In this document: in pieces, positions 1,816-7,997 of the stretch | How positions within the stretch are numbered: the first letter of the stretch is position 1 | How the letters are laid out: each line of letters starts with the position of its first letter | Made by a program: the position numbers and the translations under genes | The notes under the pieces: model-generated | The model's database searches: none | Told to the model about the DNA's origin: nothing | The model's input: the letters and a program-made list of their open reading frames with translations, nothing else | Assembly: GCF_028747645.1 (NCBI RefSeq) | Contig: NZ_CP118100.1 | Coordinates: 434,001-498,000, forward strand | Source of the DNA: Microbacterium esteraromaticum | GTDB taxonomy: Bacteria; Actinomycetota; Actinomycetes; Actinomycetales; Microbacteriaceae | Direction of reading: 5' to 3' | DNA length: 64,000 bases

Positions 1816-3045
1816 ATGCACGCGTCACAGTTCACCGGGCATCAGTGGCCGCCCCACGAGGTGGAGGTGTTGCCTTGGCGTCAGCAGGTGCGTGGAGGAA
1901 CCCGCGCCGACCGGATGCTGACTGTCGTACAGGCGACGATCCCTCCGATGATCGAGCACGCGGAGTATCTTCCTCCGATGCCGGTCATCGTGGCATCCGA
2001 GCACGCGTTGCTGGCCGTTGCTCAGGCAGACACGGATGCTGAGGGGCATTCTGCGGCGATGAGCCGCTTCATGATGCGTACGGAATCGGTTGCCTCGTCC
2101 AAGATCGAGCGGATCACGGCCGATGCGGTCGACTACGCCAAAGCTCTGGCCGGCAACCGCTCGAACATTTCCGCGTCGAGCATGGTGGCGGCCAGCACAG
2201 CGTTGCACGAGCTCGTCACCGTGACCGGAGATCGTGGTCGATTCGAACTGGACGACGTCCTCGCCGCACACCACGCGCTCATGAAGGACGACCCGCAGGA
2301 AGCGTCCTACGCCGGCCGCCTGCGTGACATGCAGAACTGGATCGGCGGAAGCGACTACTCGCCTCGAGATGCGCTGCACGTGCCGCCCGCATCCGAGCGT
2401 GTCCCCGCACTGATGGACGACCTGCTCGCCTATCTGAACCGCGATGATGTGCCCGTGCTGACGCAGGCGGCGATCGTGCACGCCCAGTTCGAGTCGATCC
2501 ATGCCTTCACCGATGGCAATGGCCGTATCGGCCGAGCCTTGGTCTCCGCTGTCTTTCGTCGGCGAGGTGTGACGCGAAACGCTGTCGTTCCGCTGGCCAG
2601 CGGTCTGCTCGCCGAACGCGATAGCTACTTCGCAGCCCTCGGGGCATATCGCCTCGGCAACCCCGCTCCGTTGGTCGAGCTGTTCGCACGTTCCGCTCGC
2701 GCGGCGGCGACGTGCTCTCGCGTGTCCATCGCGCGTATCAAGGCGCTCCCGGGGGAGTGGATGGCAGAGGTCCAGCCACGCACGGGCTCTGCGGCCGCTG
2801 CTCTCATCCCCGCCTTCTATGACAATCCGGTGATGACGGTCTCGGAGATCGAACGGTACTCCGGAGCCTCTACGCAGGCGACCTACACGGCGATTGACCG
2901 GCTTGAGGATGCCGGCTTCATCCGCGAGATCACAGGACGCAAGCGCGACCGGGTCTGGGTGGCGTCTGAGCTTCTGGCTGAGCTCGACGATCTCGATCGG
3001 CGCATCCAGACCGAAATGGTCAAGGGGTTGCCGACTCAAGGCTGA
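1816..3045 (+). CDS. Fic/DOC family protein (probable AMP transferase) with C-terminal winged helix
   Basis: Fic enzymes usually transfer AMP from ATP to a hydroxyl side chain of a target protein. The core motif HAFTDGNGRIGR begins at His229 and contains the catalytic His and the anion-binding GNGR. Near the N-terminus, S94-S-K-I-E98 resembles the inhibitory helix motif (S/T)xxxE(G/N), so the protein may restrain itself. A region after residue 330 (MTVSEIERYSG, QATYTAIDRLEDAGF) looks like a winged helix, as in the common 370-410-residue Fic proteins with DNA-binding tails. There is no separate antitoxin gene next to it. An AT-rich stretch at 1745-1815 probably holds the promoter. It lies just left of the integrated element and probably belongs to the old chromosome. 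Confidence 0.88.
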   Translation: MHASQFTGHQWPPHEVEVLPWRQQVRGGTRADRMLTVVQATIPPMIEHAEYLPPMPVIVASEHALLAVAQADTDAEGHSAAMSRFMMRTESVASSKIERITADAVDYAKALAGNRSNISASSMVAASTALHELVTVTGDRGRFELDDVLAAHHALMKDDPQEASYAGRLRDMQNWIGGSDYSPRDALHVPPASERVPALMDDLLAYLNRDDVPVLTQAAIVHAQFESIHAFTDGNGRIGRALVSAVFRRRGVTRNAVVPLASGLLAERDSYFAALGAYRLGNPAPLVELFARSARAAATCSRVSIARIKALPGEWMAEVQPRTGSAAAALIPAFYDNPVMTVSEIERYSGASTQATYTAIDRLEDAGFIREITGRKRDRVWVASELLAELDDLDRRIQTEMVKGLPTQG

Positions 3046-3102: not shown

Positions 3103-3183
3103 CGTTTCATCTCGCTTCGCTCGCTCAACGACCGGGGTGGGTGGCGCGTGTTGTCTCGCTTTGCTCGCTCAACGACCGGGGGA
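3103..3183. repeat. Two tandem copies of a short intergenic repeat (left array)
   Basis: Unit 1 (3103-3146) and unit 2 (3147-3183) share the core CTCGCTCAACGACCGGGG preceded by CGTTTC-type sequence. They match the three units at 7731-7856 with a few substitutions. Read on the other strand the core is GTTGAGCGAGCG...GAGACGAAAC, a repeat I recognise from many Microbacteriaceae genomes. The function is unknown; it resembles REP elements in placement. Confidence 0.75.
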
Positions 3184-3297
3184 GGGCAAAGCAAAACCCC
3201 CGCGATGTAGAAGCTACGCGAGGGTTTCTGGGATCACTGTAATGATGATCCTTGTGGCTCCGACCGGCATCGATCCGGTGACCTTTCGATATTCAGT
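3184..3297. repeat. attL: Left attachment site: displaced 3' half of tRNA-Phe plus terminator
   Basis: Bases 3184-3290 are identical to 7854-7960. After one mismatch (A for T at 3291) identity goes on to 3297. The copy holds the 3' half of tRNA-Phe from the anticodon loop to the discriminator (3255-3297) and the tRNA terminator downstream of it, but no 5' half. This is what is left of the original tRNA 3' end after a tRNA-targeting recombinase inserted an element. Confidence 0.85.
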
Positions 3298-3432
3298 TAG
3301 ATTCGGCGGGCCAGCGGGCGCTTGTTGGTCGCCGTTTGCCGCGTGATCCCGCGGAAGTCGTCATGGTTAGTCGCGGCTGCTTGAGGGTGGTTTCAGCGGA
3401 GCTACCGGCACGGCACCGGCACACTCCCGCCA

Positions 3433-5121
3433 TCATTGGTGGTTGAGACGTGTTTGGATCTCCTCGGCCAGATGACGGCATTTCGTCGCGTTCTTGAAGA
3501 GGCTGGCGAGGTAGTTGCCCTCGTACTTGCTGTCGACGAGCGCCACGAGCTCTTTGTAGATTGACGACGTGAGTGCCTTGGCGGAATCCACGGATGCCGC
3601 AAACGAGTCCTCTTCGATTGTCGGCCAACAAGGGTCGAGCTGAGAGTACACAACGTGGGCGATCAATCGGTTGCCATGCACCGCGACGAGGTTAGAGCGT
3701 CCTGTGTTCTCGCTTCTTAGGTTCGCAAGGCGACCGTCGATAGCTCGAAGCAACTGAACTGAGCGCCAGAGTCGTTGTGCGGAGAGTGTGGAGTCAAAGA
3801 GTCGCCGATACTGCGAGGAAGTGTCCTCGGACTCGGCGCCGATCCACAGGCGTCCAACTTCGCGCTTGGCTTGGGTTGAAAGATCGACGTTCTCGTTGGC
3901 GCATGCGAGTGCAACAGTCGCATCGGTGATAGTGAAGCCCTTGACGGGTGCTGGTGTCTCGGCACCGCTCTTGATCACATATCGAATGCCAGACAAATTA
4001 AGCTCGACCGCCAGTGAATCCTGAAGCGGATCCAGGGAGACAAAATCACGACGCTCGACCCGATTCTGGGTGTTTGTGCCTCGAGTCACGCTTTGCGCAA
4101 AGCCAGGCGGGCAGCCCTCCAGTGAGATGAAGCGGACTGTGACTCGTGCATCGGCGACTTTCTCTGCGTGCTCGACGTCCATCGTAGCGAGGCATCCAAC
4201 TGTCTGAGCCCCGTTGACAATTGAGACACCGGAGAACCGAAATCTACCTGACTTCCTCGATGCGCCTTGGGCGGCCGCTTTGGTGAAACTGTCGCACAGG
4301 ACCGTGATGCCGTTGTTGAGGTACCAAAAATGCTCCGGTGCCTCAAGCAAGGTGTCGCTGATCGACGCATTTACCTCGGAATCGCCGAGGAATTGTCGGA
4401 TGTTGCTGGCAAGGAGATTTGTTCCGTGATCCCTGTACCACGATGCCACCTCCTGCGCAGATACCTGGCCGTAGAATGCACGATAAGGATCCTCTACCGC
4501 GCCCCAGTCATAGAGCGTTGCATCGACGTCGGGCTTTCTGCCGGTCGCGGCCGCGCGCAGGATGTTATGAAGTTCCTTCTGAGAAAGGTACTCAAAAGTC
4601 ACCGTCTCGATCGGATCATTCATTTCCGCCAGCAGGGTTGATACAGCTGCGCTTGCGTCGGCCGAAATCTTGTCCGCTCCGGAATGCACGACGAGCAATG
4701 TGATGTGCACGTCGAGATCCTCCAACGCGGCCTCAAAATGCTCCCGCTGGTCTTGGAACTTTGCGTTGAAGCGGCCAAACTCCGCGTTGACGAAATTTCG
4801 CACACCTTGCAAGAACTTGTGCATGTCTCCTGCGCTGATCGAGCCGGTTCCTTTGCTCGACCATTTTGACTGTACGAGGAAGATCGTCTTTGTTCCCTGA
4901 TCGACCCAGGCCGCATCGATGCCTTGATCGTTGAAGCCATCGGTTACAGCCGTGGCGGCGTCTTCGGGCTGTAAGCGGCAGCGCTCCATGAGCGTCCATG
5001 CGGCCAGGCCTCGGCTTCGACGAACCATGTCAACATCGCCCTTGGCGTCCGACACATCAATGTGCGGGCCTACTGCGTTCTCGATGTTGGTAGCGAGCTG
5101 TCGAAGCTGGAGTACACCCAT
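3433..5121 (-). CDS. AIPR family protein (abortive infection phage resistance)
   Basis: The 562-residue protein contains the AIPR signature around residues 238-280: NIRQFLG, VNASISDTL, PEHFWYLNNGIT and VNGAQT further on. The family (PF10592) was named after lactococcal abortive-infection proteins and occurs in defence islands. The N-terminal part has NDQGIDA (64-70) and, 14 residues after Asp69, Gln84-Ser-Lys86 in a hydrophobic strand (FLVQSKW). This spacing resembles a PD-(D/E)xK nuclease core, so it may be a nuclease; that is inference. The ATG at 5121 is chosen because the open frame above it is compositionally non-coding and crosses the intergenic inverted repeat. It is transcribed away from the recombinase gene and has no partner on its strand. 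Confidence 0.85.
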   Translation of the reverse strand: MGVLQLRQLATNIENAVGPHIDVSDAKGDVDMVRRSRGLAAWTLMERCRLQPEDAATAVTDGFNDQGIDAAWVDQGTKTIFLVQSKWSSKGTGSISAGDMHKFLQGVRNFVNAEFGRFNAKFQDQREHFEAALEDLDVHITLLVVHSGADKISADASAAVSTLLAEMNDPIETVTFEYLSQKELHNILRAAATGRKPDVDATLYDWGAVEDPYRAFYGQVSAQEVASWYRDHGTNLLASNIRQFLGDSEVNASISDTLLEAPEHFWYLNNGITVLCDSFTKAAAQGASRKSGRFRFSGVSIVNGAQTVGCLATMDVEHAEKVADARVTVRFISLEGCPPGFAQSVTRGTNTQNRVERRDFVSLDPLQDSLAVELNLSGIRYVIKSGAETPAPVKGFTITDATVALACANENVDLSTQAKREVGRLWIGAESEDTSSQYRRLFDSTLSAQRLWRSVQLLRAIDGRLANLRSENTGRSNLVAVHGNRLIAHVVYSQLDPCWPTIEEDSFAASVDSAKALTSSIYKELVALVDSKYEGNYLASLFKNATKCRHLAEEIQTRLNHQ

Positions 5122-5149
5122 ACTCCGAATGTAGCGGTCATGTGAGGTA

Positions 5150-5201
5150 GGGCTGAAGCGCCGCCGAGGACCGGACGCACCGCAGTGCGGCGCTTCAGCC
5201 C
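5150..5201. promoter_or_regulatory. Perfect 15-base inverted repeat in the divergent control region of the element
   Basis: GGGCTGAAGCGCCGC at 5150-5164 is the exact reverse complement of 5187-5201, with 22 bases between. It lies in the 149-base gap between the AIPR start (5121) and the recombinase start (5271), so both promoters must lie around it. It could be an operator, a recombinase or directionality-factor site, or an RNA hairpin in one of the leaders. There is no T run, so a simple terminator is less likely. Confidence 0.6.
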
Positions 5202-5270
5202 GCCTAGCCGGCCGGAGGTCGGTCTTGAACGAGTAAAGAAAGTTCTCACAGCTCACCGGTCGCTCTTCGC

Positions 5271-6239
5271 ATGGCGGCGCGTGAACGGCGTAGCTTGTCC
5301 GACTCTTCGCGCGACTGTTCCTTGCTGGCGTCGCGGGACTTGACCCACGAACGCTACTGGCCGGTGATAGAGAACAGCATCCGAGCCTCGACCGTCCGGG
5401 CGTACGACTGCGGATGGCGGCTTCGCGTGAAGCCATGGCTCGGGCACTTGCTACTCGAAAAGCTGACTGCGGGCGACATTGACACGGCCATGTCGGAATG
5501 GAACGGGAGCGCCTCGACTCGTATCGACGCGCTTTCCATTCTGAGCCGCCTCCTCGATGGAGCAGTCAGGGCAGGAATCATCCCGATGAACCAGGCACGC
5601 CTTGCGCGTCGCCCGCGGGTCGAGTCCGGGCTTGGCCCTCGGTTTCGCGCTCTGACAGCTGCGGAAGCCACGATCCTGCTCGAAGCGATTGATGGAGCGC
5701 ACTACCGGCGCTACATCGCTGGGCTCGTGTACACCGGTATGCGCGCCCACGAGGCGGCTGCACTGCGCTTTGAAGACGTCGATCTGGCGCATCGCACCAT
5801 TCACGTGCGCCGTGCCTACGGCGTTGGACTAGACGGTCGCGGCGTCGAACTCACCCCCAAGGGGCACAAGGGATGCGACGTGCCGATTCCGAGTGCGCTC
5901 GTTGGACTGCTGACGGAGGCCATGGAAGGTAAGCAACGTGGAGAGCCGGTGTTCACAGGCCCACGAGGTGGCCGGCTCAACGCCTCGAACGTCCGGCGTG
6001 CGATCGATTGGGGAGCACTGCGCAAAAAGATGCGTCGAGGAGACCTTCGGGTTCACGACCTTCGGCGCACCTTGGCCACGCTTCTCTTCGATGCGGGCGC
6101 GTCTGCCAATGACGTGCAGGCCGTGCTCGGCCACTCGACGATGCAGATGACTGAGCGCTACAGCCGCGCACGCTCCGATGTCGCGAAGCGTGCAGCAGCA
6201 GCCATAGACTCGCTGCTCGACCTGAGGGAGGGCCCGTGA
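5271..6239 (+). CDS. int: Tyrosine-type site-specific recombinase (integrase)
   Basis: This 322-residue integrase should catalyse insertion and excision of the element at tRNA-Phe. An N-terminal SAM-like DNA-binding domain (about 25-110) precedes the catalytic domain. The catalytic set is visible: Arg158 (TGMRAHEAA), a candidate Lys197/Lys200, His262-x-x-Arg265 (HDLRRT), His288 (LGHS) and the nucleophile Tyr297 (TERYSRA). The ATG at 5271 is the first good start after the divergent control region. Its stop overlaps the start of the next gene (TGATG), so the operon behind it is translationally coupled. The nearby tRNA-Phe repeat is the expected target. Confidence 0.93.
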   Translation: MAARERRSLSDSSRDCSLLASRDLTHERYWPVIENSIRASTVRAYDCGWRLRVKPWLGHLLLEKLTAGDIDTAMSEWNGSASTRIDALSILSRLLDGAVRAGIIPMNQARLARRPRVESGLGPRFRALTAAEATILLEAIDGAHYRRYIAGLVYTGMRAHEAAALRFEDVDLAHRTIHVRRAYGVGLDGRGVELTPKGHKGCDVPIPSALVGLLTEAMEGKQRGEPVFTGPRGGRLNASNVRRAIDWGALRKKMRRGDLRVHDLRRTLATLLFDAGASANDVQAVLGHSTMQMTERYSRARSDVAKRAAAAIDSLLDLREGP

Positions 6240-6436
6240 TGGACGCGAAGCAGGACCTCGACTTGATTCTCAAGGAGTCGCACGGCCATGCGGTACTGGT
6301 CAGCGCGCTCGGGGACTACATCGGTGACCTCGAAGCCAAGTGCGAGAGTCGCTTCGACGATGCGGAGGCAACCTGCTTTCCGCGCAGCATCCGCTTCGCG
6401 GAAGCCCTGAGTGACATCTTCTATCGCTGGCCGTGA
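6239..6436 (+). CDS. Hypothetical small protein of the element (65 residues)
   Basis: The start codon ATG at 6239 overlaps the recombinase stop, which argues for real, coupled translation. The 65-residue product is mixed in charge, has two cysteines (KCESRF, ATCFPRS), no membrane segment and no motif I recognise. A directionality factor would be a reasonable guess from its place next to the integrase, but it is not notably basic and no helix-turn-helix is visible, so that is weak. Confidence 0.5.
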   Translation: MDAKQDLDLILKESHGHAVLVSALGDYIGDLEAKCESRFDDAEATCFPRSIRFAEALSDIFYRWP

Positions 6437-6526
6437 ATCTCACTTGACGAAGCTTGTCCGCGAACATCACGCCTGACGGCCTATATGGGAGAGCGCACGT
6501 GCGTTCGAATGGGATGGAGTACAACA

Positions 6527-6898
6527 ATGCGCGAGATGCTGATGTTTGAGGTTGATCGGTCGAACCAGCTCAATCTCGACAAGAAAGTCATGGAGGACCT
6601 TGGCACCGACCTGGCCCAGCAAGGCGAAGTCGCCGCCGTCTGGATTGCGGATGAAGGGTGGGGCATCGGGGGCTTCCACCTTCAGATCGCGGTAGCTACA
6701 CGTGGACGCACAATCGAGCGCTGCCTGGACGACACGTTTCGGCTGGTCGAATACTGTGCCCAAGCGCACGCCGTTCGCATCGGTCTCAGTGCCATGGCGG
6801 GTCGCAACATCGCTGATGCACCTGCTGAGATTCTCAGCGAGCTTGGCTTGAAGACTAGGCTGAGCACCTTGTCCACGGTGTTTCGGAGGCTCAAATGA
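6527..6898 (+). CDS. Hypothetical protein of the element (123 residues)
   Basis: The ATG at 6527 is preferred over the ATG at 6485 because GGAG stands about ten bases before it and the first 14 codons of the longer form look non-coding. The product is soluble in appearance, alpha/beta, with a hydrophobic strand (EVAAVWIADEGW), a segment LQIAVATRG and a leucine-rich C-terminal helix. I do not recognise a family. Its stop overlaps the start of the phosphoesterase gene by four bases (ATGA), so the two are made together and may act together. Confidence 0.65.
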   Translation: MREMLMFEVDRSNQLNLDKKVMEDLGTDLAQQGEVAAVWIADEGWGIGGFHLQIAVATRGRTIERCLDDTFRLVEYCAQAHAVRIGLSAMAGRNIADAPAEILSELGLKTRLSTLSTVFRRLK

Positions 6899-7665
6899 AC
6901 GGGAGCATTGCGCAGATGAGGCAACTGGAGTTCGACTTCGACGCCGTCGACTTCGTCACCAGCGACAACCACTTCGGGCATGCTCGGATCAGTGAGCTCG
7001 CCAGTCGGCCGTTCACGTCCGTCGACGAGATGAACGTCACCATGATCGAGCGCTGGAATGCTCTTGTCCGGCCCGACGACGTCGTGCTGCATCTCGGCGA
7101 TCTTGCGCTCGGGCCGATCGAGACGAGCATCGGACTTACGAGCAGGCTCAACGGACGTCGGCTGCTTGTGCCGGGCAACCACGATCGCGTCTCGCCTGCA
7201 ATGCAATCGAATCGCGCAGTCGAGCGGTTCCGCCCGCTGTATGAGGATGCAGGGTGGACGGTGCTCCCTGAGATCCTGCACGGCACCCGACGCGGTGTTC
7301 GGCTGCTCGCTTCGCACTATCCGTACTCCGGCGACACCACGGGAGCTGACCGGCACAGCAAGCATCGACCGATTGACGACGGCATCCCACTCATCCACGG
7401 GCACACCCACGAGCACGAGTTCGGCCCGCACAACTACCGCGAGTTCCACGTCGGAGTCGATGCGTTCGACTTCGCGCCTATCCCGTTCAAGCTGATCGAT
7501 GCTTGGCTCGAGAGTCTGCGCCGCGAGGAAGAAGAAATCGCCGCGATAGTCAGAGCGCGCACGGCTTCGGTGGAGAGCGATTCGCTCGACTCGCTGGCTC
7601 GTCAGTTTGGCGTGAATCTCGACGGCGACGACCCGACCGACGATGCCGGGAGCAACCAAGAATGA
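6895..7665 (+). CDS. Calcineurin-like metallophosphoesterase
   Basis: All metal-site motifs of the family are present: D24-N-H26, G68-D69, G94-N-H-D97, H141 (ASHYP) and G169-H-T-H172. The 256-residue protein is of the short cytoplasmic type often found in phages and mobile elements, which act on phosphodiesters or nucleotides; the substrate is not known. A C-terminal tail of about 60 charged residues follows the catalytic domain. It is the last gene of the four-gene plus-strand operon and overlaps the 123-residue gene by four bases. In a defence setting it could act on nucleic acid or a nucleotide signal, which is inference only. Confidence 0.88.
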   Translation: MNGSIAQMRQLEFDFDAVDFVTSDNHFGHARISELASRPFTSVDEMNVTMIERWNALVRPDDVVLHLGDLALGPIETSIGLTSRLNGRRLLVPGNHDRVSPAMQSNRAVERFRPLYEDAGWTVLPEILHGTRRGVRLLASHYPYSGDTTGADRHSKHRPIDDGIPLIHGHTHEHEFGPHNYREFHVGVDAFDFAPIPFKLIDAWLESLRREEEEIAAIVRARTASVESDSLDSLARQFGVNLDGDDPTDDAGSNQE

Positions 7666-7730
7666 GGGCCCACCGGCCCCAGACCGGCCGAGTGGCACAG
7701 ATCGGACGCATCTCCGCATCCGGCGGCACA

Positions 7731-7856
7731 CGTTTCGTCTCGCTGCGCTCGCTCACCGACCGGGGTGGGTGGCGCGTTTCGTCTCGCTGCGCTCGCTCAC
7801 CGACCGGGGTGGGTGGAGGCGTTTCGTCTCGCTGCGCTCGCTCAACGACCGGGGGG
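7731..7856. repeat. Three tandem copies of a short intergenic repeat (right array)
   Basis: Units at 7731-7774, 7775-7819 and 7820-7856 share CTCGCTGCGCTCGCTCA followed by CGACCGGGG, with the first two nearly identical over 44 bases. The spacing is that of direct tandem units without unique spacers, so this is not a CRISPR array. The array lies between the phosphoesterase gene and the tRNA-Phe terminator, and a two-unit array stands at the same place before the left copy. Confidence 0.8.
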
Positions 7857-7967
7857 CAAAGCAAAACCCCCGCGATGTAGAAGCTACGCGAGGGTTTCTG
7901 GGATCACTGTAATGATGATCCTTGTGGCTCCGACCGGCATCGATCCGGTGACCTTTCGATTTTCAGT
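7854..7967. repeat. attR: Right attachment site inside the intact tRNA-Phe
   Basis: This is the partner of 3184-3297: 107 identical bases, one mismatch at tRNA position 37, then six more matches. Here the 3' half continues into an intact 5' half, so the element supplied a working tRNA 3' end when it inserted. Confidence 0.85.
7864..7897 (-). terminator. tRNA-Phe terminator
   Basis: On the minus strand AACCCTCGCG and CGCGGGGGTT pair around a 12-base loop and are followed by TTGCTTT. The same hairpin is duplicated at 3194-3227 as part of the left attachment site. Confidence 0.75.
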
Positions 7968-7997
7968 CGAACGCTCTACCAACTGAGCTACAGAGCC
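7925..7997 (-). tRNA. tRNA-Phe (GAA)
   Basis: A 73-base cloverleaf is readable on the minus strand: acceptor GGCTCTG with CGGAGCC, D arm AGCTCAGTTGGTAGAGC, anticodon loop CTGAAAA (anticodon GAA) and T arm with GATCGATGC. The CCA end is not encoded. It is the integration target of the element and is followed on the same strand by the duplicated terminator. Confidence 0.97.

Follow-up and report, generated by a model that had tools for sequence, protein, structure and literature searches.

An AIPR-bearing insert at tRNA-Phe of Microbacterium esteraromaticum is very probably an eroded pSAM2-type conjugative element

Is a 4.67-kb insert made of a recombinase gene and four other genes a complete mobile unit, or what is left of a larger one? 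The question is raised by a 64,000-nucleotide stretch of the Microbacterium esteraromaticum genome (GCF_028747645.1, contig NZ_CP118100.1, positions 434,001 to 498,000; hereafter the window), in which two exact 107-bp direct repeats with a spacing of 4670 bp enclose five genes. The right repeat (7854..7960) lies within an intact tRNA-Phe (GAA) gene (7924..7997, minus strand). The left repeat (3184..3290) holds only the 3′ part of this tRNA, from 3254 to 3290, plus the same 70 bp downstream with a terminator-like hairpin, and is also borne out as an attachment site by a family-wide alignment. The first-pass annotation had seen site-specific integration in this arrangement and had placed the five genes where we find them, and both statements hold. 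Its conclusion that the insert is a very small defence-carrying mobile unit does not, since the integrase is truncated, no excisionase (xis) or replication (rep) gene is present, and the whole appears to derive by deletion from an actinomycete integrative and conjugative element (AICE) of the pSAM2 type. Three features had escaped that sequence-only reading, namely the truncation of the integrase, a non-coding hairpin box, and an inner left arm common to a family of elements. We conclude that the insert is very probably an eroded pSAM2-type AICE, now a fixed defence-bearing island.

The tyrosine integrase (Int; PF00589) is encoded by an open reading frame (ORF) of 322 residues (5271..6239, plus strand) and matches the enzymes of loci L033, L034 and L035 at 73–77% (locus handles begin with L, genome handles with G). 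Homology starts at residue 26, corresponding to nucleotide 5346, so 5346–6239 is the native part, and homologues carry about 75 more N-terminal residues. DNA similarity to L033, L034, L035, L037, L038, L086 and L088 runs from 5352–5358 onward, placing at 5346..5352 a putative deletion junction at which core genes and the Int N-terminus would be missing. The first 25 residues of the ORF show no convincing homology. The minus strand of 5253..5345 probably preserves the C-terminal end of an AICE gene whose 3′ end normally falls within the box, with a shared stop in a conserved CTCACA and, by eye, similar tails in L038, L039 and L088; before residue 26 this antisense tail shares 7 of 19 residues with L039. 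A frameshifted integrase N-terminus was also considered and tentatively rejected, as upstream of residue 26 weak similarity was found to one relative only (L088) and the antisense tail fits better. Residues R158, K197, H262, R265, H288 and Y297, assigned to the catalytic motif of tyrosine recombinases, are all present. Matches to this integrase at E ≤ 1e-30 occur in 24 of 149 congeneric genomes, its own included, with nine of the others at 58–77% identity; close relatives also lie beside a tRNA-Met/Thr pair (L039, L040), and the window genome holds no second Int of this type. Genome G158 (L086) likewise has an integrase without its front, beside another open frame.

The relatives of this integrase, at 57–77% identity, point to the lineage from which the insert came. 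In an 8-kb stretch of G099 (L034) the order is box, GntR, a 132-aa protein, FtsK/SpoIIIE, a lipoprotein-like protein, RepSA, a small helix-turn-helix (HTH) protein, Int, a 66-aa protein, a 158-aa protein, a metallophosphoesterase (MPE) and tRNA-Phe, with RepSA (PF20199, 497 bits), FtsK/SpoIIIE and GntR confirmed by Pfam. Searches by tblastn with the L034 proteins found RepSA, FtsK and Int together in seven tRNA-Phe loci (L033, L034, L037, L038, L088, L123 and L125), as well as L035 without FtsK and L041 without Rep. Gene content of the RepSA, FtsK/TraB and GntR type marks AICEs (PMC3218068, PMC11706625). The inner left arm of the insert (3291..3425), a putative attP arm with integrase arm sites, aligns by eye in 14 of 16 elements that have a second tRNA-Phe copy. 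Its mean identity to four Int-bearing elements is 0.77, compared with 0.72–0.78 for those four among themselves, and the lowest arm identity among the 14 is 0.56 (L181). Because the integrase relatives sit in RepSA/FtsK/Int elements and the left arm is family-specific, we assign the insert an AICE origin.

Measured against a complete AICE, the element has the expected attachment site in the 3′ end of a tRNA gene. None of its five proteins matches FtsK in Pfam; the 97-aa HTH ORF of L034, named Xis from its position alone, is without a counterpart in it; and its integrase belongs to the same family but is not full length, the N-terminal domain being absent. When 86 AICE ORFs were compared with the element, only four matched: Int, the 66-aa gene, the MPE and a terminator/repeat-region ORF. 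RepSA (PF20199) is absent from the whole window genome; of the AICE initiator types RepSA, RepAM and Prim-pol, the search covered the first. As in a remnant AICE or a cis-mobilizable element (CIME), both attachment sites are kept, with their 107-bp repeats and the family arm, and integration and transfer functions are lost, the transfer genes being absent and int truncated rather than absent.

The site of the loss is marked by the box, a conserved non-coding stretch of about 90 bp (5165..5258, plus strand) that consists of a GC-rich part, a short hairpin (5207–5223 in the window) and a 26-bp motif (5224–5249). It has the same orientation in all nine Int-bearing tRNA-Phe family elements, and all nine retain 30–33 of 33 bases of its motif part. 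The window retains 32 of 33, with the GC-rich part degraded to a remnant, and the motif occurs once within it. Box and int lie 4.2–4.7 kb apart in L033, L034, L037, L038, L088 and L123 and 3.2 kb apart in L125. In the window the box adjoins int, and the roughly 90 bp between them resemble, by eye, the end of that box-terminated AICE gene. Because the box adjoins a short int here, yet stands 3.2–4.7 kb from it in complete elements, the arrangement is most simply explained by one deletion that took the core and the start of int. In this view, an AICE family of the Microbacteriaceae would integrate at the tRNA-Phe 3′ end and carry defence-type genes in the interval from the left attachment arm to the hairpin box, and a single internal deletion would have taken the small regulator and accessory genes, FtsK/TraB, RepSA, Xis and the Int N-terminal domain. 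Spared by it would be both ends, the AIPR gene as cargo, the core and catalytic domains of Int, and the tail genes through the phosphoesterase. With those genes missing, the element would be unable to excise or transfer alone. Two further deletion forms were seen: in L041 / L219 (M. lacticum) a single open frame spans FtsK and Int and Rep is lacking, and in L220 (Labedella populi) Int stands closely behind the box.

Could the short integrase nevertheless integrate and excise the 4.67-kb element alone, as a complete minimal mobile unit? The catalytic residues are intact, the repeats perfect and the reading frames open, as such a unit would need, but the Int N-terminal domain is missing although the attP arm is conserved, the start of the ORF lacks convincing homology, and no xis, rep or transfer gene is present. 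Nor is the gene set met again, the 123-aa gene having one weak match (E 7.6e-6) among 365 other congeners and the AIPR gene relatives at E ≤ 1e-60 in five of 360. With a truncated Int and a missing core, we reject this reading as very improbable. The PHROG matches of AIPR, int and MPE might instead suggest a decayed prophage or phage satellite, an origin that we consider extremely unlikely. None of the five proteins was identified by family scans as a transfer, phage structural or packaging protein, in line with the first-pass statement that transfer and phage genes are lacking; the best phage record covers 5% of the element, in two pieces at its ends; the relatives are AICEs with RepSA and FtsK; and the exact box motif pattern was found in no viral contig searched.

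The eroded-AICE interpretation raises the question of whether such erosion is peculiar to the window. The tRNA-Phe cluster is found in at least 358 of 366 genomes of the genus, and we surveyed 100 tRNA-Phe loci, mostly from the top of the list, skipping some already read or on short contigs. This sample is biased toward window-like loci, so its counts are not genus frequencies, and in two of its loci (L146, L178) the sequence to the left of the tRNA is shorter than 9 kb. Nine extra loci were chosen for int, MPE or same species, one locus being in both sets (L037 = L107). Any mark was present in 18 of the 100 loci and a second copy of the tRNA 3′ part in 11. Of these 11, two are complete AICEs, two carry other integrases and arms, and seven lack an integrase; L107 is also a complete AICE, the third, and showed no second copy. 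Together with G071 and G232, the seven make nine integrase-less, attachment-site-flanked elements in other Microbacterium genomes. A PF00589 search of those nine genomes, with coordinates compared by hand, placed no integrase inside any element, and the ten genomes, window included, hold neither RepSA nor a second full Int of this type. Unrelated elements share the site as well, since two larger elements of this tRNA-Phe, L163 and L177 (10.1 and 11.7 kb), have integrases only 29–31% similar and quite different arms.

What remains of the AICE differs among these elements. The window keeps the int core, the 66-aa gene and the MPE. Pieces are kept in six of the nine others, namely the gene right of the box in G071 (76%), the MPE in G232 and G273, the 132-aa gene in G162, and other pieces in G222 and G299; G021, G174 and G304 have only ends and repeat-region matches left. 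The box motif is nearly complete (31–33 of 33) in L080, L174 and L190, as in the window, partial in L083, L138 and L187, and not found in L114, L145 and L181. Because the kept pieces mostly differ and the box is nearly complete, partial or not found depending on the element, the series fits independent erosion.

The cargo is likewise diverse. It is Nsn-like in G071 and G021, an AbiU-type AIPR in G232, AbiL-like/PDC-M38 in G273, Septu PtuAB in G174, PD-Lambda-5 with a methylase in G299 and G304, a helicase-like gene plus one of no assigned type in G162, and in G222 a set of small genes including an apparent toxin-antitoxin pair. PADLOC matches below 1e-20 were obtained in eight of nine scanned elements, window included, in a scan that left out the small-gene set of G222 (L181); of the two cargo proteins of L187, one has weak helicase matches only and the other none. 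In the Int-bearing elements, eight of ten proteins in the same place had PADLOC matches at E < 1e-20, these ten being long proteins picked from 25 ORFs, none from L034. Two of ten long host proteins of the window, picked from 44 as a control, also matched, and because both are generic AAA ATPases, ATPase matches alone count as weak evidence. The PtuB, PD-Lambda-5, NsnC and AIPR matches do not depend on ATPase similarity. The tRNA-Phe site is a defence hotspot with many remnants. It holds differing cargo even within M. esteraromaticum: in strain GN8-5 (G071), with flanks 95–97% identical to those of the window, the repeats enclose a 3948-bp element that lacks int and encodes an NsnB-like ATPase and an NsnC-like protein. 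An empty tRNA-Phe site, which the first-pass annotation had proposed to look for, was therefore not found within the species, G071 being the only other genome compared.

Do these elements merely decay in place, or are they still moved? In a CIME, ends and box would be kept because the Int, Xis, RepSA and TraB of a visiting AICE act on them in trans, moving the defence gene. Ten elements with an absent or short Int, that of the window and the nine others, share AICE-type ends. The arms of six (window, L080, L083, L114, L138, L190) differ from Int-bearing arms no more than the latter differ from one another, the box motif is nearly complete in four, cargo differs at one site within one species, and such elements are described for integrative and conjugative elements and beside pSAM2. 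But all ten genomes lack RepSA and a full Int of this type, three elements have a partial box and in three more none was found, the arms of L145, L174, L181 and L187 are more diverged, and the kept AICE pieces are mostly element-specific, as expected of independent decay. We consider trans-mobilization possible but unlikely.

Several observations weigh against the eroded-AICE interpretation. With all catalytic residues intact and the ORF open, Int may have residual activity, and the perfect 107-bp repeats show ends without visible decay. The deletion is deduced from other species, not from a pre-deletion copy in the same species. The left ends and cargo extent of L033, L034, L037, L041 and L088 are presumed, as no second tRNA copy was found in the stretches fetched for them. 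PADLOC matches to AAA ATPases are unspecific, both control matches being of that kind, and the anti-phage activity of the AIPR protein is predicted from family and fold.

The AIPR gene itself (3433..5121, minus strand) encodes 562 residues with a predicted PD-(D/E)xK-like nuclease domain, a ParB-N-like domain and a helical C-terminus, and its GC content of 0.57 stands against 0.67–0.69 in the flanks. Membership in PF10592 is clear, at 117.2 bits against a Pfam cut-off of 25, and the predicted structure suggests a FokI-like nuclease domain and a ParB-like domain; a PDB sequence search gave no match and Foldseek none at E ≤ 0.001. Because of family and fold, the protein is most likely a nuclease-based anti-phage protein. 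This supports the earlier label of a probable anti-phage gene as regards family and fold, with the role itself predicted.

What, then, is the box? A search of genome_contigs (84,980 species) for its exact motif pattern gave 25 occurrences, all in Microbacteriaceae: Microbacterium, Agreia, Cryobacterium, Rathayibacter, Labedella and one unassigned family member. It matches no Rfam family, and a pattern scan gave no promoter or terminator. A perfect 15-bp inverted repeat at 5150–5201 overlaps its GC-rich part and was seen in no other aligned box sequence. In the window, L080, L174, L187 and L190 the cargo genes point away from the box and start about 45–70 bp to its left, which is compatible with a promoter. 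A cargo promoter is nonetheless disfavoured by a negative sigma-70 pattern scan and by cargo on the opposite strand in L138, where the box is partial. A hairpin stands upstream of CTTGAA in 30 distinct motif-pattern sequences, with mismatches in some, and its letters differ in Agreia, Cryobacterium and Rathayibacter (2 of the 30 sequences, four loci). Origins of the pC194 type are nicked at CTTGATA (PMC10378824), and PMC3218068 cites te Poele et al. for assigning pSAM2 to the pC194-type family. The box may be a rolling-circle origin, a lead suggested by a CTTGAA that is similar to CTTGATA but not identical. For the Microbacteriaceae tRNA-Phe AICE family, the box is a concrete candidate origin or site of transfer. 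A bolder and rather doubtful extension is that these AICEs have a dedicated defence bay between the attP arm and a box serving as TraB site or as the origin nicked by RepSA, and that arm-and-box derivatives are cis-mobilizable cassettes moved by passing AICEs, continually reloading the site with different anti-phage systems.

At the other end of the element, the tail genes follow int. The 65-aa gene (6239..6436, plus strand) is related to genes directly behind int in G099 (44%), G158 (36%) and G253 (39%), and the calcineurin-like MPE (6895..7665, plus strand, 256 residues) is 78% identical to that of G099, matches phrog_547 at 144 bits and PDB 1xm7 at 3.9e-8, and falls below the Pfam cut-off. 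Because both gene types follow Int in G099, G158 and G253, they are part of the AICE's own tail. Between them lies a 123-aa gene (6527..6898, plus strand) that overlaps the MPE start. Its homologues begin at this ATG and comprise three database proteins, itself included, and BLASTP shows no similarity between its product and that of the gene in the same place in G099 (L034). MPE matches at E ≤ 1e-20 occur in 54 of 366 genomes of the genus, its own included. The gene is also found on two Microbacterium plasmids (H21, H22; 72% DNA identity), and in several loci (L082–L094) it overlaps or nearly overlaps an upstream gene that differs by locus; there the MPE is a conserved enzyme with a variable partner. 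The pairing of these genes with AIPR had been put forward as undescribed. The exact five-gene set is indeed seen only in the window, with AIPR near the same MPE type in two other congeneric loci (G232, G142), but the 65-aa gene and MPE are AICE tail and AIPR is known in print as AICE cargo.

Outside the core, short GC-rich repeats of the GTCTCGCT.CGCTCGCTCAACGACCGGGG type lie near both element ends (3103–3181 and 7731–7853), and the right end has 17 further matching places in the genome. A Fic-family gene (1816–3045) stands just to the left of the left repeat. Other tRNA-Phe loci also have Fic genes nearby (L083, L038, L100, L133, L175 and L210), in L083 and L038 adjoining another box copy, a hint of older remnants stacked at the site.

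A seemingly unique gene set is now tied to a known conjugative lineage, and it shows how defence genes may outlast the element that delivered them, because among the 100 loci, which were not chosen for int, seven integrase-less family remnants flanked by attachment sites stand beside three complete elements. The two M. esteraromaticum genomes, whose defence-type genes differ at a shared site, offer a ready test case for cargo turnover. Neither the Microbacterium tRNA-Phe AICE family nor the box nor the remnant series appears among the titles and abstract openings listed by literature searches, in which subscription journals are thinly covered. The kind of element and its cargo are known, AICE remnants and AIPR as AICE cargo being already in print: Frankia elements without tra or rep are described as remnants or mobilizable elements (PMC3218068), and Streptomyces AICE cargo includes AIPR and restriction-modification genes, with one remnant without traB (PMC9513070). 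The insert resembles pSAM2-type AICEs (PMC3218068, PMC11706625) in its integration at a tRNA 3′ end by a tyrosine Int and in having relatives with RepSA, FtsK/TraB, GntR and an HTH gene, but it lacks all core genes and its Int is truncated; the Microbacterium family, moreover, may have the 66-aa gene, a variable gene and the MPE between Int and the attachment site, with defence cargo at the opposite end. Like a CIME or remnant AICE, such as XSAM1 beside pSAM2 (PMC4891641; definition in PMC5704250), it has kept its ends and lost integration and transfer genes, whereas it retains most of int and one defence-type gene in 4.7 kb. The AIPR-type cargo is shared with Streptomyces AICEs (PMC9513070), from which the insert differs in being an eroded Microbacterium element. 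Finally, the fixed position and interchangeable defence genes within an integrated element recall the defence hotspots of P2/P4 phages and satellites (PMC9122126), but the lineage of the window element is a conjugative AICE, not a phage.

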